A stretch of 64,000 nt of DNA, taken from assembly GCA_025360005.1 (NCBI GenBank), contig JANYDA010000049.1, positions 62,001 to 126,000 on the forward strand, given 5' to 3'. The stretch is from Fibrobacteria bacterium. GTDB lineage: Bacteria > Fibrobacterota > Fibrobacteria > UBA11236. A program made the position numbers and the translations under genes. Shown here piece by piece: positions 46,203 to 56,193 of the stretch. Position 1 is the stretch's first letter, and every line of letters starts with the position of its first letter. The notes under the pieces were generated by a model. That model saw only the letters and a program-made list of their open reading frames with translations. It made no database searches and was not told where the DNA came from.

Positions 46203-48008
46203 ATGCGCCCAGACCCCTCCCGGATTCGGAATTTCTGCATCATTGCCCATATCGACCATGGCAAGTCGACCTTGGCGGACCGTATGCTGGAATTGACCAA
46301 GACCATCACCAAGCAGGATATGCAAGCCCAGGTGCTGGACGATATGGACCTGGAGCGCGAGCGCGGCATTACCATCAAATCGCACGCCATCCGCATGCTC
46401 TATACCTATAAAGGCGAGCAGTATTTCCTGAACCTCATCGACACCCCCGGGCATGTGGATTTCACCTATGAAGTCTCCCGATCGCTGGCGGCTTGCGAAG
46501 GCGCCATTCTGGTGGTGGACGCCACCCAGGGCGTGGAAGCCCAGACCCTGAGCAATCTCTATCTGGCCATGGATGCGAACCTCACCCTGGTTCCCATCCT
46601 CAATAAGATCGATCTGCCTTCCGCGCATCCGGACGATATCGCCGAATCGGTGGGCGAATTGCTCGGCTATGAGCCCGATCGCATCCTGCGCGTATCCGCC
46701 AAGGAAGGCATCGGCGTGCGCGAACTGCTCGATCGCGTCATCGAGGAGGTCCCCGCGCCCAAGGCGGATCGCACCTTGCCGCCGCGCGCCCTCATCTTCG
46801 ATTCCAAGTTCGATCCCTACCGCGGCGCCATCGCCTTCATCCGCGTCTTCGACGGCGTGCTGCAGCACAAGGCCCCCATCCGTCTGATGGCGAACGACAA
46901 GGAATTCGAGATCAATGAGATCGGCACCCTGACCATGACGCGCGAGCCGCAGGACTCGCTGGCCGCGGGCGAGGTGGGCTACATGGTGGCCAATATCAAG
47001 AACGTGAAGGATACCAAGATCGGCGACACCGTGGTCGATCGGCGCAATCCCGCGGCGGAAGCGCTCAAGGGATACAAGGATATCGTGCCCATGGTGTTCG
47101 CGGGCATCTATCCCATGGACACGGACGATTTCGAGGACTTGCGCGAGGCGCTGGAAAAGCTGGCCCTCAACGATTCCGCCCTGTCCTGGCAGCCGGAAAC
47201 CTCCCTGGCGCTGGGCTTCGGCTACCGCGTCGGCTTTCTGGGGCTGCTGCATATGGAAGTGGTGCGCGAGCGGCTGGACCGCGAGTTCAACATGACGGTC
47301 ATCTCCACCGTGCCCAACGTGGAATACCATGTGCAGATGACCGACGGCAGCGAGTTCACGGTGGAGAATCCCAGCAAGCTTCCCGACGCGGGCAAGTACG
47401 AGGGCATCAACGAGCCCTATGTGAAATCCCAAATCATCCTGCCCAAGGAATACGTGGGCGCGGTGATGAAGCTGGCGGAAGAGAAGCGCGGCCTCTATCA
47501 GAACATGGAATATCTCACGCCGGACAAGGTCGATCTCAAGTACGAGTTCCCCATGGGCGAAATCATGTTCGATTTCTTCGATAAGCTCAAGTCCGTTTCC
47601 AAAGGCTACGCATCCTTCGACTATGAACTTATCGGCTACCGGCCCGGCGCGCTGGTCAAGCTGGACATCCTCCTTAACGGGGATCCCGTGGACGCCTTCT
47701 CCGTGATCATCCATAAGGATAAGGCATACAATTGGGGCAACGCCCTGTGCGAAAAGCTCAAGGAGCTGATCCCGCAGCAGATGTTCGAAGTGATCATCCA
47801 GGCCGCCGTAGGCAGCCGCGTCATCTCCCGCTCCACCGTCAAGGCCCTGCGCAAGAACGTCACCGCCAAGTGCTACGGCGGAGACATCTCGCGCAAGCGC
47901 AAGCTGCTGGATAAGCAGAAAGAGGGGAAGAAGCGCATGAAGGCCGTGGGCAACGTGGAGATTCCGCAGGAAGCTTTCCTGGCGGTGCTCAGCATGGATA
48001 AGGCCTAG
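46203..48008 (+). CDS. lepA: Elongation factor 4 (LepA)
   Basis: A ribosome-bound translational GTPase that back-translocates tRNAs or aids initiation and ribosome biogenesis. The 601 residues have the G domain (G1 [10 protein letters not shown]2 RGITIK, G3 DTPGHVD, G4 NKID, G5 SAKEG), EF-G-like domains II, III and V, and the LepA-specific C-terminal domain ([29 protein letters not shown]). Length and order are standard. The ATG at 46203 fits the family start. Confidence 0.98.
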
Positions 48009-48549: not shown

Positions 48550-49224
48550 TCAATGGATTTTCAGGACGATGCGCCGGTTCTTGGCCTGATTGGCCGCGAT
48601 GGGCTTGCCCTCGCCGTCCACGTTGGGCGCCTTGGGCTTGGTATCGGCGTAGCCGGCCGCCTTCAGGCGCTCGGAGGGAATGCCCTTTCCGATCAGGTAC
48701 TTCACGATATTGGTGGCCCGGGACACGGAGAGTTCCCAGTTGGAGGGGAACTGCAAGGTATTGATCGGGATGTTATCCGTGTGGCCCTCGATATCCACGG
48801 CGAACTTGTAATACTCGATGCGCTGGATGGCCTCGGCGACCTTGTCCATGTTGGCCCGTGCCGCGGGGCCGATGTCCGCCCGGCCCGGATCGTAGATGGC
48901 GGAACTGGAAAACTCGACGATGATCCCGTCGCGGCCCAGATCCACGCTCACTTCGCCGCGCCCGCGCTGATCGGCCAGCAGGGAATCCAAATCGTGCTTG
49001 ATTTCCCCCAACGGAGTCTTGACGTCCTTATCCTTGCCGATGTCGCTGCGCAATCCCTTTTTCATCTGCTCGAACAGGACCGGATCCACATGGGAGACGG
49101 ACAGCATGGCCAGGAAAAACGCCATCAGGAGGGTGACCATGTCCGCGTAGCTCATGAGCCAATCCTCTTCGGCTCCCTCCTGCTCATGGACGCGATGGCG
49201 GTTGTGGTGCTTGCTGATGGCCAT
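48550..49224 (-). CDS. motB: MotB-like stator protein
   Basis: A 224-residue stator subunit with one membrane helix and a C-terminal OmpA-type peptidoglycan-binding domain. The ion-binding aspartate is D28 in SYADMVTLLMAFF, directly comparable to D32 of E. coli MotB, so the channel should conduct protons or sodium. A plug/linker region follows (about 48-85), and the OmpA domain has GHTDNIPI, NWELSVSRATNIVKYL and NRRIVLKIH. It starts eight bases after the motA stop and is the last gene of the five-gene unit. Confidence 0.95.
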   Translation of the reverse strand: MAISKHHNRHRVHEQEGAEEDWLMSYADMVTLLMAFFLAMLSVSHVDPVLFEQMKKGLRSDIGKDKDVKTPLGEIKHDLDSLLADQRGRGEVSVDLGRDGIIVEFSSSAIYDPGRADIGPAARANMDKVAEAIQRIEYYKFAVDIEGHTDNIPINTLQFPSNWELSVSRATNIVKYLIGKGIPSERLKAAGYADTKPKAPNVDGEGKPIAANQAKNRRIVLKIH

Positions 49225-49232
49225 GGGCCCGC

Positions 49233-50069
49233 CTACTTGCCCTTGGCCGTCCCGCCTTTGGCGGACCCGCCTTTGCCCGATCCGTTTTTATCGCCGAACA
49301 GGGAATACTGCTCGCGGCGATCCAGGTAGGAGTTCATCTTGTCCTGGATGTACATGGCCGGTTTCTTCTCCATGATCAGGACCAGGGCCTCCAGGACCAG
49401 GTAGTGGCGGAAACGCTCGATGCTCAAGGTCTGCTTCACCTTGGTGGAAGAGGGCATGAAAACGAAGCGGGCGAACAGCAGGCCGTAGAGCGTGGCCGTC
49501 AGCGCCAGGGAAAGCCCCGGACCCAGCTTGGACGGATCCTCCAGCTTGCCCAGCATCACGATCAGGCCCAGCAGGGTGCCCACCAGGCCGAAGGCCGGCG
49601 TCATGGACCCCATGGAAGTGAGGATGGTGGAACCTTGCAGGTGCCGGAAGTAATGTTCTTCGATGTTGGTGGTGCCGAACTCGCGGATGTCGTCCGGCTT
49701 ATAACCGGTGCTGGCAAGGGTGAAAATGTACTTGGTGAATTCGTCCTTACTGCCCTTGGCGATGGCATCGTAGGCGCTCTGTCCCTCCGCCTGCACCCTC
49801 TTGGCCCAATCGCCGGCCGTCCTCACGTCCTGGATCAGGCTCTTGGACGAGATGTCCTGCTTGAGGAATATCTTGAGCGTTGCCAGGAAGGCGTTCCAGA
49901 CGTACTGGAACCGGAAACCGATGAAGGTAACCGTCACGGTACCCCCGAAGACGATGGCCAGGCTGCCCAGGCTCAGGAAGACATGCCAATCCTTGGTCTC
50001 GTGCAGAATACCGAAGGCGATGACCAGGAACCCGAAGATGACGCCGCATACGGTGGAGAGGGAGATCAT
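49233..50069 (-). CDS. motA: MotA-like stator protein
   Basis: A 278-residue MotA/PomA-type subunit starting at the ATG at 50069, which overlaps the stop of the TPR lipoprotein gene (ATGA). Four membrane segments are visible: near residues 3-22 and 30-50, then after the long cytoplasmic loop SMTPAFGLVGTLLGLIVMLG, which carries the conserved Pro, and a helix near 200. The cytoplasmic loop (about 60-150) is the part that pushes on FliG in flagellar motors. The C-terminus has a Gly/Lys-rich tail (KGGSAKGGTAKGK). It belongs to the MotA rather than ExbB/TolQ branch by length and loop arrangement. Confidence 0.95.
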   Translation of the reverse strand: MISLSTVCGVIFGFLVIAFGILHETKDWHVFLSLGSLAIVFGGTVTVTFIGFRFQYVWNAFLATLKIFLKQDISSKSLIQDVRTAGDWAKRVQAEGQSAYDAIAKGSKDEFTKYIFTLASTGYKPDDIREFGTTNIEEHYFRHLQGSTILTSMGSMTPAFGLVGTLLGLIVMLGKLEDPSKLGPGLSLALTATLYGLLFARFVFMPSSTKVKQTLSIERFRHYLVLEALVLIMEKKPAMYIQDKMNSYLDRREQYSLFGDKNGSGKGGSAKGGTAKGK

Positions 50070-51376
50070 TTGGGTTTGGCCTCGGGCTTGGGCGCCATGG
50101 ATTTGGGCAGCACGGGTCCGGCCTTGACGGCGGACGCGGAAGGCTTGGCGGCCGCGTCCGGTTTGAGCGGCGTTGCCGCGGGTGCGGGGACCGGCGCAGC
50201 GGGCGCTTCCGTTCCGGATGCCACGGCGGCGGTATCGCCTTCTTCGGCGTTTGCGGGCGCGGAGGGCGGCGCGGCTGGAGCGGCGGAGGAATGCGCTTGG
50301 GTGGGACGGGCCAGGTGGGTCGTGCGCGGCGCGGGGGGTGCGGGAACGGGTTCGGCCGCGGGAGCCGGCGCGGCCGCGGGGCCGGGCATGGGCGAGGATT
50401 CGGGCGCAGCTACCCCCCAAGGAGCGGACGGCGGAACAGGCGCGGCGGTTTGCGGACCGGTGTATTCTTCCGGATAGGGAACCTGGTCCGCTTCCGGAAG
50501 CGGCGCGGTGGGCGCGCGCGGCGCGGGACGGGAAACGATGGGACGGGGATTGGGGGAGCCGCGGCCGCCGGGCGTGCGCGTCTTCTCCAGCATGTTGACA
50601 ACGGCGGGCATGTCGGGATTAAGCCGCAGGGCTTCCAGCCATTCGCGGCGCGCCATGCCGCCTTGGCTCTGCATATAGTAGATGCTGCCCGCCAGGGCGT
50701 GGCCTTCCGCGGTGGATCGCGCGTCCAGGGAGGACCGCACCGCCTGCATCGCTTCCGGGTAGCGCTTCTGGTAGAAAAGCTCCTGGGCCTTGCGGATGCC
50801 GGTGAGCACCTTGGAGGTAACATCCTCGTAACTCCCCTGATCGTCCTCGGGAAGCGGCGCTTCCGGCTTCGCTTGCGCGTGCGGGTTCGGCGGCGGTTGC
50901 CGGCCGGCCTGCGGCTGGCCGCGCGGCGCGGGGAGGGAGGGTTCCGGATCGGGGTTGGCATCGTCCTGGCTGTCCTGGGAAGCGGGCCGCGCATCCGGCC
51001 TGGCCTCCTTTTTCCGCTGGGACGCATGATGCTCATCCTGATCGTGCGCGGCCTTGGCTTCTTCGCCGGGAGGCGGATTGGGCCTGCCGGTCATTTCCAG
51101 GTACAGATCGGTGGAACCCAGATCGATGGCCAGGTTGGCGTCCGTGCTCTTGTTGGAATAATGGAAACTGACATTGCCTTCGCCGGCCTCTCCGGCGGCA
51201 TCCTGCGCCGCCGCTGCGGCGGCGGCGCGCTTGGGCGCGCCGGGCTCCGGGCCGCTGCCGCCGCACCCCGCCCACAGTAACGCGGCAGTTACGGCCGCGA
51301 CCGCGCCCATGCCCGCATGCGCGGATGCGGAGCGCCGGCGGGCGTCAGAACGTGTAGTGGAGGTAGGTGAGTTCAT
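50066..51376 (-). CDS. TPR lipoprotein of the rotor-stator operon
   Basis: A 436-residue lipoprotein (lipobox near LLWAGC, Cys38). The N-terminal half is Pro/Ala/Glu-rich after a short segment FHYSNKSTDANLAIDLGSTDLYLEM. A TPR-like helical section spans about 185-265 (ELFYQKRYPEAMQAV, GHALAGSIYYMQSQGG, REWLEALRLNPDM). The rest is a 170-residue Pro/Ala-rich tail. It would sit in the periplasmic leaflet of the outer or inner membrane. The start overlaps the upstream barrel gene by 32 bases and the stop overlaps motA, so it is tightly coupled. A scaffold between stator and outer membrane is my inference. Confidence 0.8.
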   Translation of the reverse strand: MNSPTSTTRSDARRRSASAHAGMGAVAAVTAALLWAGCGGSGPEPGAPKRAAAAAAAQDAAGEAGEGNVSFHYSNKSTDANLAIDLGSTDLYLEMTGRPNPPPGEEAKAAHDQDEHHASQRKKEARPDARPASQDSQDDANPDPEPSLPAPRGQPQAGRQPPPNPHAQAKPEAPLPEDDQGSYEDVTSKVLTGIRKAQELFYQKRYPEAMQAVRSSLDARSTAEGHALAGSIYYMQSQGGMARREWLEALRLNPDMPAVVNMLEKTRTPGGRGSPNPRPIVSRPAPRAPTAPLPEADQVPYPEEYTGPQTAAPVPPSAPWGVAAPESSPMPGPAAAPAPAAEPVPAPPAPRTTHLARPTQAHSSAAPAAPPSAPANAEEGDTAAVASGTEAPAAPVPAPAATPLKPDAAAKPSASAVKAGPVLPKSMAPKPEAKPK

Positions 51377-52478
51377 AGGCTACGGGTTCCAGGGTCAGGA
51401 AGCGATCTTGATCCGCGCCCAGCCCTTTCAGTTTGTTGTTGAGGGGAAGGAACAGCACGCCTCCGCCCAAGGTGAAATGCCGGCTGACGCGCGATTTGTA
51501 TCCTACGGAGAGGGCGCTCAGATGCCCGCGATTGAAGAACGGGATGAACTCCTGGTAGCCTACATACGTGCCCAGCCAATAACCCAGGTCCGGGTTGGAT
51601 TTGCGGAAGAAAATCCCCAGCATCTCGATGCCGAACTTCACCATCTGGATGTTGAAGTTGACGTTTAAGCTGTCCGGGCCGCCGCCGCCCGTGGCCAGGC
51701 CGTAGCCGAGCGATACGGAGAAGAGCAGGAACTTGTCCGGGGTGACCACTTCGCTCACGGAGCCTTCGACCCCGTATTCCGTCAGCGCCAGATCGGAAAG
51801 CGTGTCCAGCCGGGCCTTGCCCGTCAGCGCATTGACGGAATCCGGACTGGGCAGAATGCTCTGCCGGATTGGAAAGCGGCGCAGGTTGGCGGAAGCGCTC
51901 CAATCCAGGTTCCAGATATCCGGTTTCTTCTCGTTGGGCCCGGCCACGAAACTGGCCGACCAGACGATTTCGCCGGTGCGATGGCGGAACACCTTCAGGT
52001 TCAGGATCACGTCATTGTCGGAGCTCTTGGAACAGGATCCCTCGATGTATCCGTCCACGCGCAGTTTATCGCCCAGTCTCCAGAGATCTTCCATGGAAGG
52101 CAGCGTATTCGAGAATTTGAACGTGCTGTCCGTGGCGACCACGCGGAAGGTGCGGAGCTCCGGGGCCGTGACCACGGTCCGGCGTCCTTCTTTTCGGAAC
52201 ACCTCTTCGATCTGCGCCTGGATATAGCGGGACATGCCCGGGCTGAAATCCTTGGGATCGACCTTCACCTGGGTGAGCGCGATGCGGTCCACGTTGGGCG
52301 GGATATCCCCCATGGTCTTGGCCAGGCGCCCCATGATCTCCGCGATCTGGCGGAGCCCGGTATTGCTGGGCGCGAAGGGATCCTGCGGAGGCGATTGCGC
52401 GGTCGCGGCCGAGGCAAGGCAGGCGGCCAGCATCAGCAACGCGGCAAACCGCGGCCGGGGCCCGGCGGCCGTCTTCAT
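51345..52478 (-). CDS. CsgG/FlgO-like outer-membrane protein with C-terminal barrel
   Basis: A 377-residue exported protein (signal FAALLMLAACLASAATAQ). Residues 60-195 resemble the CsgG/FlgO/LpoB-type domain: RIALTQVKVD at the start, RYIQAQIEEVFRKEGRRTVVTAPEL, then LGDKLRVDGYIEGSC and VFRHRTGEIVWSASF. FlgO-type proteins sit at the flagellar outer-membrane ring. Residues 215-377 look like beta-strands of a barrel and end in LHYTF, with the terminal Phe typical of outer-membrane proteins. The ATG overlaps the FliF/FliG gene stop (ATGA). I infer an outer-membrane ring or anchor for the motor. Confidence 0.75.
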   Translation of the reverse strand: MKTAAGPRPRFAALLMLAACLASAATAQSPPQDPFAPSNTGLRQIAEIMGRLAKTMGDIPPNVDRIALTQVKVDPKDFSPGMSRYIQAQIEEVFRKEGRRTVVTAPELRTFRVVATDSTFKFSNTLPSMEDLWRLGDKLRVDGYIEGSCSKSSDNDVILNLKVFRHRTGEIVWSASFVAGPNEKKPDIWNLDWSASANLRRFPIRQSILPSPDSVNALTGKARLDTLSDLALTEYGVEGSVSEVVTPDKFLLFSVSLGYGLATGGGGPDSLNVNFNIQMVKFGIEMLGIFFRKSNPDLGYWLGTYVGYQEFIPFFNRGHLSALSVGYKSRVSRHFTLGGGVLFLPLNNKLKGLGADQDRFLTLEPVAYELTYLHYTF

Positions 52479-54304
52479 ACCGGCCTTCCCGAATGCCTGA
52501 TCTCGTCGCGAATGCGATGGAGCAGGCGGCGCTGCGCCGTTTCGGAATCCCTGGGGGTGGCGTCCTGGGAGCCTTCCAGGCCCCCGTGCACCATCATCTG
52601 CATGCGCTCGGGCAATAGCGACAGTACCTTGGTGCGGATGGCCCCGTCCACGTGCCGGAGTGCCAGGATGAGCGTTTCCTGATCCAGGCCCTGGAGCACG
52701 TTGGCCAGGAACTTGTCCGGCAGGCCCGCCAGCTCCGGCAAGGTAACATACCGGTTACGCAACTTCTCCCCAAGCCCAAGATCCATCTCGGAAATGGAAT
52801 GGATGTATTGGAATTGCAGGTTGAGGGGCAGGCTGTCGATCAATTCCAGGATGCTGTCCACGCCGTCGGCGGCCACGTAGCGCATATTGCCCACTTCCAA
52901 CGCCTTCAGGGACAGGCGATCGGCTATCTCCTTGTACACGTTGAGGGGGATGTGGTCGATGTTGCCCATGGCGATGAGGAGCTTGGCGCGGTTGTCCGGA
53001 TCCGTCTTCTGCAGGATGCCTCCCGCGATCTCGCCCGGCAATTGCGCCAGCACCAAACCCACTATCCCCAGCGACTCGTCGCGCAGGATATGCATGATCT
53101 GCTGTTCGTTCATCTGCAGCAGGAAGCCGAACAGATCCTTGTACTGATCCTCATCGAGTTTGCCGTTGGCCAGGTTCTGGTATTCGCGCTTGAACTCCTT
53201 ATAGACCGTGAGCATCTCTTCGGAAGAGGGCGCTTCGCCCGCGTTCAGGTGCATTTCCAGTTTCTGGGTGAGATCGCGGCCCAGCTCCGGGGCCACTACG
53301 CCCATCAGGCGCGCATCCAGGCTGGCTATCATGGCCGCGGAGTCGCGCATGCCCTTGTCCGGATCGCGATCGATCCAGCTCTTGATGATCTGGCCGCAAT
53401 GCTTGGGGCTGCCCACGAAGCAGTTGAGCAGGAAGGGCCGGAAGGCGCCTATTTCCGGGGGCTGGCTTTTGCCCGCTTCCTGGCGCGGCGCCGGCGGGGC
53501 CTTGGGGGGTTCGGGCATAGCCGCGGGAGGAAGCGCATCCTTATCCTGCCGGCCGTTGCGGGGGGAACCGGCGATGGCGCGCGAGACCATCCATACGCAC
53601 GCCAGGATGAGCAGGCAGATGATCACGAGCGGGATCAGGGAAGGAAGATGATCGGTGTAATTACTGAAGGGGTTCATGGCGGCCTTCTCCTTGGGGTCCT
53701 CCTTCTTGGCGGGCGGATCGGTCTTGGGCGGGACCGGCGCGGGGGGAGGCGGATCCACGGGCTTGCGGTAATTGGTCAGCGAGCGGTTGTCGCGCGGGAA
53801 CACGCCTTCGTGCACGGACACGCGATCGCCGCGCTGCTCGTCCAGCCGGGTGGCCATGACCAGGAGGTTGCGGATGAAGTCGGCGTCCTTTTCCGAATAG
53901 CCCGTGTCCACTAGGATGTCCAGGGTAACCGCCTGGATACCCCCGCTGCCCTTGTCCGCGTCCGCGGCCGGCTGCGCGGGAGGGGCGGGCTGCATATTAT
54001 CCGGCAGGAAGGGGAGGCCCGGAAGCTGCTGGGGAGACTCGCCGGCCACGGCGGCCGGATCCTCGCCGCCCAGTTCCATTTCCGGGGGCGGCTCCATCTC
54101 AACTTTCGCCTTGACCAGGAAGGTCGCCTCCTCGTAATAGCGCGACAAAGTGCGCGCGGCGACGGCTTCGTAATATTGCGCCAGCTTTCCCGCCTGGTCT
54201 TGCGGGGCCCGGGCGCCCGCCGGAGCAGGCTGCGCGGGGGCCCGCAGGTATGCGGACAGCGCGATGAGGAGCGTGAGGCTCGCGATTTTTCCGGGGTTCG
54301 GCAT
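52475..54304 (-). CDS. FliF C-terminal / FliG fusion: membrane-anchored rotor-like protein
   Basis: About 609 residues from the ATG at 54304, which gives a normal signal peptide (KIASLTLLIALSAYLRAPAQ); an ATG at 54331 would add nine residues. A periplasmic part (to about 215) ends in a FliF/YscJ-type segment (VTLDILVDTG ... LDEQRGDRVSVHEGVFPRD). A membrane helix follows near 220-248 (LPSLIPLVIICLLILACVWMV), and the cytoplasmic half (about 290-609) is FliG-like. It includes a FliG-M region where the usual EHPQ motif reads DESL (409-412), and a FliG-C region, NVLQGLDQETLILALRHVDGAIRTKVLSLLPERM, that aligns with the torque-generating part. The membrane ring protein and the rotor switch protein are thus one polypeptide. 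It is the first gene of the five-gene unit. A TATAAT lies just upstream (54315-54320), without a clear -35. Confidence 0.82.
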   Translation of the reverse strand: MPNPGKIASLTLLIALSAYLRAPAQPAPAGARAPQDQAGKLAQYYEAVAARTLSRYYEEATFLVKAKVEMEPPPEMELGGEDPAAVAGESPQQLPGLPFLPDNMQPAPPAQPAADADKGSGGIQAVTLDILVDTGYSEKDADFIRNLLVMATRLDEQRGDRVSVHEGVFPRDNRSLTNYRKPVDPPPPAPVPPKTDPPAKKEDPKEKAAMNPFSNYTDHLPSLIPLVIICLLILACVWMVSRAIAGSPRNGRQDKDALPPAAMPEPPKAPPAPRQEAGKSQPPEIGAFRPFLLNCFVGSPKHCGQIIKSWIDRDPDKGMRDSAAMIASLDARLMGVVAPELGRDLTQKLEMHLNAGEAPSSEEMLTVYKEFKREYQNLANGKLDEDQYKDLFGFLLQMNEQQIMHILRDESLGIVGLVLAQLPGEIAGGILQKTDPDNRAKLLIAMGNIDHIPLNVYKEIADRLSLKALEVGNMRYVAADGVDSILELIDSLPLNLQFQYIHSISEMDLGLGEKLRNRYVTLPELAGLPDKFLANVLQGLDQETLILALRHVDGAIRTKVLSLLPERMQMMVHGGLEGSQDATPRDSETAQRRLLHRIRDEIRHSGRPV

Positions 54305-54406
54305 GGCAAGGCTGATTATACAACCCGGCATTTACGGCGACTACGGAATTCAAACCGAACGCGAATGGAGCGAGGTGCGTGAAGTGCGTGAAGTTTGAAA
54401 AAAACT

Positions 54407-54434: not shown

Positions 54435-54489
54435 CTCCGGGATGGAGCGACGTCCGGTAGCATAGGCTTTTGCCGGGGAAGGATTGGAC

Positions 54490-56193
54490 ATGCCGGTATG
54501 GTTTCGCCTCGCCATCCTCGCCGCCTGCGCGCTCTGCGCATGCGATGACGGCGTGGTGCATATCGTCCGCTTCCCTTCGGGCAGAATCCGGGAAATGTGG
54601 ACGGAAAAAGGGATCGATCCCAAAGCGACCGCGCGCGACGGCCTTTTCCGATCCTTCTTCGCGGACGGAAGCAGAGCCGGGGAAATCATGTACCGCGCGG
54701 GGAAAAAGCACGGCGCCGCCAGCTTATGGGGGGCGGACGGAAAACTCCTTTTCCAAGGCGAATACCGGGACGATTTTCTGGTGCGGGAGACGCGCTATGA
54801 TTCCTCCGGAAAGGCGTCTTCGGATCGGCGATTCACGGTCAAACCGGATCGCGTCAAGGCGGTGGGCCCTTCCGGAGACTCCATGACGGTCGTGGAAACC
54901 TGCGCCTGGTCGCAGGAACCGGACCGGCCGCCCGTCAAATACGGGCTTTGCACCCTGAAGTACGCAGACGGCAGAAACCTGGCGACCCGCTATTACCAAT
55001 CCGGCCGCCTGAACGGACCCGTCAGGGCTTGGTACCCGGACGGCACTCCCTGGCTGCAAGGGGGCTACGAGAACGACATCCCCGCGGGCAAATGGAAGAC
55101 TTGGTCCCAGAGCGGCAACCCGCTCTGGGGCGCCGCCTACGTGAAAGGCGAAAAGGACGGGGACTGGGAGGAATGGTTCCCGGACGGCACGCGGAAATCC
55201 AAATCCGGTTTTCGCGGCGGCGTCCCGGAAGGGGGGTATCAGGAATGGTACCCCAACGGCAAGCTCCGACTGCGCGGGCAATTCCGCTCCGGCCGCCGCG
55301 AAGGCAAGGAAGCCGCCTGGTACCCGGACGGCACGCGTCTCTACGCGGCGCAATATGCGGCGGGGAAATTGGAAGGGGACTTCTACCAATGGCATCCCGG
55401 CGGCAAGCTGCGCCTGCATTGCGGCTTCGCCAAGGGCAGGCGGGAAGGCTCCAGCCGCATCTGGTATCCCGGCGGCGGCCTGCAGGAACAGGCCTATTAC
55501 AAGGACGGACGCCTGAACGAATCCTATCGCACCTGGTCGGCGGACGGCGCGCCCATGGCCATGAAGGAAATACGCGACGGCGCCGTGGCTTTCGATTCCA
55601 AGGCCAAGGAACTCCTTGATCTTTTGGGCGCGGACAGGTTGCGCGTGCCCGTGGGCATGATGGGATTCTATTGGGGCATGGGGATTAAGGAATGCCGCGC
55701 CAACCTGGGTCTGTACCAGGTTTCGGAAGTGCGCGCCGGCGACAGCGAAATCACGGCGCAGCTGATCGCTTTTCCCGATCGCCGGCCCACGCGGGCGCGC
55801 ATCCGTCTCGCCTTCAACAGCCAGGGAGAGCTATGGGGGCTCAAATTGGATCTGACCCAGAAATCGTCGGCGGATTTCTTCCCCCTTTGCGAGAACCTGG
55901 AGATCGAAATCGGGGCGGAGCTGGGGACGGTGGGGTTGCGGAAGGCGGAAAGCGGATCCGGATACAGTATGACCCGGAAAAGGGAATGGGGGCGGTTCAC
56001 GGTGACCACCGGGGCCGACGGGAAGATCAGACAGACACTTCCGGTCCTCAACGCGGAAGGGTTCAGCCCTTCCGGCCCGGGTTGGTTCCGATTTTCCTTG
56101 GCGAACCAACTCTACCGCGAGTACGTGAATCCGGCCAACATCTCCATCACGCCTCCCCGCTGGCAGGAAGAAGCCTTCCTGGCCGGGCGTTGA
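54490..56193 (+). CDS. MORN-repeat lipoprotein
   Basis: About 567 residues from the ATG at 54490 (GGGGAAGGA upstream). The N-terminus is a lipoprotein signal; either Cys13 (ILAAC) or Cys18 (LCAC) could carry the lipid. Residues 40-365 consist of about ten MORN-2 repeats of 20-24 residues with the pattern (E/A)WYPDG...GxxxxGxxxG (for example EWFPDGTRKSKSGFRGGVPEG). The C-terminal 190 residues (from KELLDLLGADRLRVPVGMMG) are a separate unknown domain. YwqK-type MORN proteins occur as surface or toxin-immunity lipoproteins. Its sigma-28-like promoter and divergent position suggest work with the adjacent rotor-stator operon. Confidence 0.82.
   Translation: MPVWFRLAILAACALCACDDGVVHIVRFPSGRIREMWTEKGIDPKATARDGLFRSFFADGSRAGEIMYRAGKKHGAASLWGADGKLLFQGEYRDDFLVRETRYDSSGKASSDRRFTVKPDRVKAVGPSGDSMTVVETCAWSQEPDRPPVKYGLCTLKYADGRNLATRYYQSGRLNGPVRAWYPDGTPWLQGGYENDIPAGKWKTWSQSGNPLWGAAYVKGEKDGDWEEWFPDGTRKSKSGFRGGVPEGGYQEWYPNGKLRLRGQFRSGRREGKEAAWYPDGTRLYAAQYAAGKLEGDFYQWHPGGKLRLHCGFAKGRREGSSRIWYPGGGLQEQAYYKDGRLNESYRTWSADGAPMAMKEIRDGAVAFDSKAKELLDLLGADRLRVPVGMMGFYWGMGIKECRANLGLYQVSEVRAGDSEITAQLIAFPDRRPTRARIRLAFNSQGELWGLKLDLTQKSSADFFPLCENLEIEIGAELGTVGLRKAESGSGYSMTRKREWGRFTVTTGADGKIRQTLPVLNAEGFSPSGPGWFRFSLANQLYREYVNPANISITPPRWQEEAFLAGR

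Follow-up and report, generated by a model that had tools for sequence, protein, structure and literature searches.

A FliF-FliG fusion encoded alongside a dedicated MotA and MotB in Fibrobacterota: a candidate motor apart from the flagellum

Results

An operon built around a FliF-FliG fusion

We analyzed a stretch of 64,000 nucleotides (the window) from a Fibrobacteria bacterium (GenBank assembly GCA_025360005.1, contig JANYDA010000049.1, positions 62,001 to 126,000 of the forward strand), in which a five-gene operon runs along the minus strand from 54331 to 48550. It encodes, in this order, a FliF-FliG fusion protein, a predicted outer-membrane barrel protein of 377 amino acids (aa), a TPR lipoprotein, MotA, and MotB, with gene ends that overlap or nearly touch (Table 1). 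The fusion was found in 9 of 167 Fibrobacterota genomes (G000 to G005, from a single genus, and G010, G012, and G055; four families), which we refer to as the carriers. Gene order was constant in every carrier as far as the contigs extend, the contig of G001 ending inside the third gene. An earlier reading of this DNA, made without database searches (the sequence-only reading), had proposed a rotor-like protein in the fusion gene; motA and motB lie beside it, and neither fliM nor fliN occurs within the five genes. The operon likewise has no genes for an export gate, rod, hook, filament, or C-ring, and is therefore not a flagellum as a system; flagellar genes lie elsewhere in the genome.

Table 1. 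Coordinates of the operon genes and of the features of the fusion protein within the window.
Feature	Position	Strand	Evidence
Fusion protein: signal peptide, FliF RBM3, membrane helix, FliF-tail helix, FliG N/M/C	52475..54304	-	frame open to 54331
RBM3 region, residues 43-179, long insert where the beta-collar sits	53795..54205	-	hhalign, permutation control, helix/strand order in model
Membrane helix, residues 223-254	53570..53665	-	model, hydropathy
FliF C-terminal-helix-like motif SPKHCGQIIKSWI, residues 308-320	53372..53410	-	profile alignment, permutation control
FliG_N-like region, weak, residues 327-397	53141..53353	-	Pfam E 0.0012, under cut-off
FliG_M domain, residues 410-482	52886..53104	-	Pfam, fold matches
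ESLG in the EHPQ position, residues 419-422	53066..53077	-	alignment
FliG_C domain, residues 512-610; R576 = R281 equivalent kept, D288/D289 equivalents replaced	52502..52798	-	Pfam, fold, alignment
377-aa secreted protein, LpoB/TolB-N/FlgT-type domain and predicted eight-stranded outer-membrane barrel	51345..52478	-	model, structure matches
TPR lipoprotein, invariant lipobox cysteine	50066..51376	-	Pfam, alignment
Operon MotA, four membrane segments	49233..50069	-	Pfam, NCBIfam, hydropathy
Operon MotB, plug and OmpA domain	48550..49224	-	Pfam, NCBIfam, alignment

The open reading frame of the fusion gene (52475-54331, minus strand) spans 618 aa and holds a second in-frame ATG at 54304, from which, as judged by eye, a more usual signal peptide would start than from 54331. 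In Pfam searches, the fusion matched FliG_C (E 3.1e-14) and FliG_M (E 4.8e-12) above the cut-offs, and these two domains, together with the fold matches described below, mark it as a FliG relative. The FliG_N match and a YscJ_FliF_C match (E 0.026, residues 128-175) stayed under the Pfam cut-off, and the score against the NCBIfam fliG model TIGR00207 (69.7 bits) lies far under the equivalog cut-off of 226.7. The FliF part emerged from a profile-profile comparison of 9 orthologues with 14 FliF proteins of the phylum (hhalign), where residues 43-179 span the whole of RBM3 (E 1.1e-6). This alignment scored 59.3, and none of 100 column permutations exceeded 24.9; the RBM3 region alone scored 39.9 versus 24.9 in 200 permutations. 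As in FliF, RBM3 stands ahead of what corresponds to the second membrane helix, the single strong hydropathic membrane segment of the fusion (residues ~225-257), while the first membrane helix (TM1), RBM1, and RBM2 are missing: only a signal peptide and ~20 residues precede RBM3. A signal-peptide-bearing fusion of the FliF C-terminal part with FliG, as the sequence-only reading had it, was thus borne out by the FliG_M and FliG_C matches, the RBM3 alignment, and the signal peptide seen by eye.

Past the membrane helix, SPKHCGQIIKSWI pairs with the FliF C-terminal helix EPINIANLIKTWL (hhalign, E 0.007), with an alignment score of 25.0 versus no more than 18.7 in 200 permutations. Accordingly, the joint of the fusion appears to lie where the C-terminus of FliF meets the N-terminus of FliG. 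The canonical fliF and fliG genes adjoin each other in the window's genome.

The AlphaFold2 model of the fusion reached a mean predicted local distance difference test (pLDDT) of 61.8 and a predicted TM-score (pTM) of 0.27. It contains a helix (46-65), a strand (71-79), a long insert, a strand (132-141), a helix (147-161), and the membrane helix (223-254), which is the order of elements given for RBM3 with its beta-collar insert in passages of PMC11481574. In line with the FliG assignment of the sequence-only reading, the top 18 Foldseek matches of the model in the PDB were all FliG chains. The C domain resembles FliG in its stator-bound (MotAB) state (8ucs_H; TMt 0.88, Z 14.2, 88 residues, root mean square deviation (rmsd) 1.5), and the M domain resembles FliG in complex with FliM (4fq0_C; TMt 0.88, Z 12.7, 80 residues, rmsd 1.2). 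For RBM3 there was a single weak structure match, to FliF 227-435 (Z 5.1); VIA structure matches of residues 1-290 were few and weak, and a missing match in that region says little.

Among the partner proteins, the 377-aa protein had no Pfam match in any of its nine members, and a PDB sequence search also yielded nothing. Its model (pLDDT 72.1, pTM 0.47) combines an alpha/beta domain similar to LpoB (Z 11.9, 124 residues), GNA1162, PelC, TolB-N, and FlgT (Z 7.9) with an eight-stranded barrel similar to the outer-membrane barrels of NspA, OprF, and OmpA (Z 14.0-14.6). The lipobox cysteine of the TPR lipoprotein is invariant (8/8). MotA and MotB score under the NCBIfam equivalog cut-offs and carry the marks of flagellar-type stators: four helices with two prolines in MotA, and a membrane Asp, a plug, and an OmpA domain in MotB. 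In the eight genomes where MotA could be compared (the operon of G001 being cut off by its contig end), the interface charges (a Lys at the R90 equivalent and an Asp or Glu at the E98 equivalent) and both channel prolines were kept throughout.

All five genes are under purifying selection. Between G000 and four congeners, the ratio of nonsynonymous to synonymous substitution rates (dN/dS) was 0.12-0.21 for the fusion, 0.14-0.16 for the barrel protein, 0.11-0.23 for MotA, 0.05-0.10 for MotB, and 0.28-0.34 for the lipoprotein. Upstream of the operon, sigma-28 and sigma-54 patterns were absent in all nine genomes, and a scan for sigma-70 promoters and terminators gave no more hits than expected by chance. 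A TATAAT-like stretch (54305-54331, minus strand) directly upstream of the 54304 start codon is kept in five of six congeners; on account of this, the first ATG may lie outside the coding sequence and the transcript may have almost no leader. Constraint on the encoded protein could also account for its conservation, and the stretch was not among the hits of the promoter scan.

Loss of the switch motif and of classical torque charges

To compare functional sites, we aligned the 9 fusions together with 27 canonical FliGs from the phylum and one Salmonella chain, taking the roles of the FliG positions (FliM motif, hinge, and torque charges) from work on E. coli FliG. The FliM-binding EHPQ motif, whose loss the sequence-only reading had pointed out, is indeed gone: H126, P127, and Q128 are lost in all nine fusions, whereas 26 of the 27 canonical FliGs retain the motif and the remaining one has ERPQ. 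The replacement had been read as DESL; the alignment places ESLG there, one residue off. The MFXF hinge was found in none of the fusions versus all 27 canonical FliGs.

The face toward the stator had been described as well kept, which holds for the fold and not for the charges, since K264 and D288/D289 are replaced. Specifically, D288/D289 became GG, SG, or SS in 9/9 fusions and are acidic in 27/27 canonical FliGs, and K264 is changed in every fusion, in one of them to Arg. Among the classical torque charges (K264, R281, D288, D289, and R297), R281 alone is retained in all nine.

Distribution and the flagellar genes of the carriers

The 377-aa barrel protein occurs in exactly the nine genomes that have the fusion. 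All nine carriers also encode flagellin, proteins with FliM/FliN C-domains (FliMN_C), and a second, separate MotA, which lies on the fliM contig in G010 and G055 and on the fliG contig in G012. A separate canonical FliG was found in eight, the exception being G010 (79% complete). FliM (PF02154) was detected in 57 of the 167 genomes, including seven of the nine carriers; its gap in G005 and G012 is likelier due to fragmented assemblies. The prediction that genomes with the fusion would lack FliM and FliN thereby failed at the genome level, and two candidate explanations fell with these counts: carriers devoid of FliM/FliN, given FliMN_C and flagellin even in G005 and G012, and the operon MotAB as the sole flagellar stator, given the second MotA. 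The canonical set of the window's genome comprises FliF, FliG, FliM, two more FliM/FliN-family proteins, and MotA followed by MotB. A second FliM with a matching altered interface was not seen: the PF02154 search found no more than one FliM in any fusion genome, and the FliM of the window's genome retains a GGxG motif, as GGQG.

Two long FliG frames were not counted as fusions. The one in G057 (L038) is a canonical FliG whose frame runs on upstream, and the one in G102 (L083), with parts read as N, is a FliG with an extended C-terminus beside FliM. The latter contig (G102:C111, 4.4 kb), perhaps foreign, carries this extended FliG together with a second FliM; the genome is 4% contaminated. Some further FliM/FliN-family genes were noted in the carriers. 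A lone FliN-family gene of 96 aa (L086:9959-10249, plus strand; G000:C40) lies near genes that by eye resemble the pilM-N-O-Q set of type IV pili; the FliM and FliN/FliY-like pair sits far away, on contig C42. FliM/FliN-domain proteins with lower scores, in 369-401-aa frames, occur at G004:C73:175422-175631, G005:C218:9407-9610, and G005:C250:22944-23150.

Beyond Fibrobacterota, one single-sequence pattern scan, which reaches close relatives only, returned four loci, all from Fibrobacteres. Viral contigs scanned with the fusion alignment gave 55 pattern matches and no relative, and a plasmid scan gave one record, an ordinary fliG. A survey of the phylum infers flagella to be ancestral and lost in Fibrobacteraceae, and its text mentions neither FliG nor MotA (PMC4704652).

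Discussion

The flagellum of the carriers is already supplied with FliG, FliM/FliN, and MotAB of its own, so that the operon is most simply read as a second motor that does not switch. We find it somewhat more probable than the contrary that the five genes form one machine apart from the flagellum, i.e., a flagellum-derived, ion-driven motor with neither filament nor direction switch. This is suggested by the domain assignments, by an own MotA and MotB in constant gene order, and by the co-occurrence of fusion and barrel protein. The flagellum's own MotA, FliM/FliN-family proteins, and flagellin in all carriers point the same way, as do the loss of EHPQ and MFXF, the retained MotA charges, the purifying selection, and the lack of sigma-28 or sigma-54 patterns. 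Weighing against a separate motor, the RBM3 part of the fusion model has low confidence (pLDDT mostly below 60); the classical charges D288/D289 are lost, so that torque on the fusion's FliG is not certain; and every carrier is flagellated by gene content, so that the motor may not be independent of the flagellum.

The flagellar gene content of the carriers bears directly on an explanation that we regard as unlikely, in which the operon serves the flagellum as an accessory: the fusion would add a ring next to the MS ring, the barrel protein would act as a component like the H ring, and the operon MotAB would offer an alternative stator. Flagellin and FliM/FliN-family proteins in 9/9 carriers, and an operon that never occurs in genomes without flagella, agree with such a role, as does the FlgT-type fold among the matches of the barrel protein, where an LPHT ring also appears (Z 8.0). 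However, the operon is missing from 50 of the 57 genomes with FliM, a separate flagellar MotA is present in every carrier, the fusion has given up both the FliM contact and the switch hinge, and LpoB matches the barrel protein better than FlgT does. Rather improbable, in our estimate, is a Tol-like energizer, in which the ion-driven MotAB would move the single-pass fusion against peptidoglycan and outer membrane, short of full rotation, for envelope upkeep. The parts are akin to those of Tol-Pal (a stator pair, a single-pass inner-membrane protein, a TolB-N-type domain, and a TPR protein), yet TolB_N matches occur elsewhere in all nine carriers (in the window's genome on the same contig as a TolQ-type protein), the stator is of the flagellar type with an OmpA domain, and Tol offers no place for FliG M and C domains. 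A functionless, decaying duplicate of flagellar genes would fit the ~20% identity to canonical FliG and the lost motifs; the open frames, the conservation across four families, the constant gene order, and dN/dS values of 0.05-0.34 make decay unlikely, and we give it almost no credence.

For the separate motor, we infer ring formation, rotation, and load as follows. The RBM3 of the fusion would lie in the periplasm and form a ring on the inner membrane, predicted to be smaller than the MS ring since a signal peptide takes the place of RBM1, RBM2, and TM1. With FliG covalently attached to each subunit, separate docking of FliF and FliG would not be needed. MotA, anchored to peptidoglycan via MotB, would drive the ring through contacts chemically unlike the flagellar ones, and with FliM/FliN unused, the motor would rotate one way only. 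The RBM3 ring would then hand its motion to the lipoprotein and to the barrel protein with its periplasmic domain of FlgT/LpoB/TolB-N fold. A more far-reaching version strikes us as possible though doubtful: a stand-alone rotary machine consisting solely of flagellar torque parts (an RBM3-FliG ring with flagellar-type MotAB), free of export apparatus, switch, and filament. It would turn or crank the lipoprotein and the barrel protein with its FlgT/LpoB-like domain as an assembly at the outer membrane, possibly in surface motility, next to the ordinary flagellum that the same cells encode.

We know FliG normally only as a part of the flagellum. If the separate motor is real, a flagellar motor can be taken out of its context and given another load: a conserved operon would have kept the torque core (FliG joined with the FliF ring domain, MotA, and MotB), lost the contact to FliM/FliN along with the export and axial components, and gained partners of outer-membrane type. 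The operon would moreover be a natural test of what torque needs, with R281 and the MotA charges kept and D288/D289 lost.

The fusion shares RBM3, the FliF-tail helix, the FliG M and C folds, and a MotAB stator with the canonical FliF-FliG rotor, from which it differs by its covalent joint, by the loss of D288/D289, and by lacking RBM1, RBM2, TM1, EHPQ, and MFXF; the operon, unlike a canonical flagellum, has no FliM/FliN, export, or axial genes. A precedent is the natural fusion of Chlamydiaceae, where, according to PMC4768692, a shortened FliF is likewise joined to FliG sequence behind the second membrane helix. By that published description, the chlamydial fusion holds the FliG M region only and belongs to non-flagellated bacteria, whereas the Fibrobacterota fusion has FliG N, M, and C, a MotAB operon, outer-membrane-type proteins, and flagellated hosts. 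When FliF and FliG are fused artificially, the products assemble into rings or functional flagella (PMC11481574, PMC4768692). The engineered Vibrio FliFG, also a covalent FliF-FliG, forms rings of 34/35-fold symmetry and differs in having a whole FliF and a canonical FliG (PMC11481574, in part).

Stator homologues at work outside the flagellum have precedents in AglRQS, TolQR, and ExbBD (PMC12505986, in part). In the sections of this MotAB survey that we drew on, stators split into flagellar and generic types, FliG is mentioned once, and no FliG-bearing non-flagellar operon appears. AglRQS, TolQR, and ExbBD are of the generic type and have no FliG, whereas in the operon described here stator and rotor are both flagellar-derived. 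We found no description of the operon in the open-access literature, a coverage that leaves out most subscription journals and preprints.

Neighboring genes

On the opposite strand from the operon, a protein named LepA-like from its sequence is encoded at 46203-48008 (plus strand). Facing the operon head-to-head, at 54484-56193 (plus strand), is a gene for a MORN-repeat protein, an arrangement shared by all six genomes of the genus. In G055, the operon adjoins genes that, judged by eye, are CheA-like and chemoreceptor-like (L033:1-4583, minus strand).
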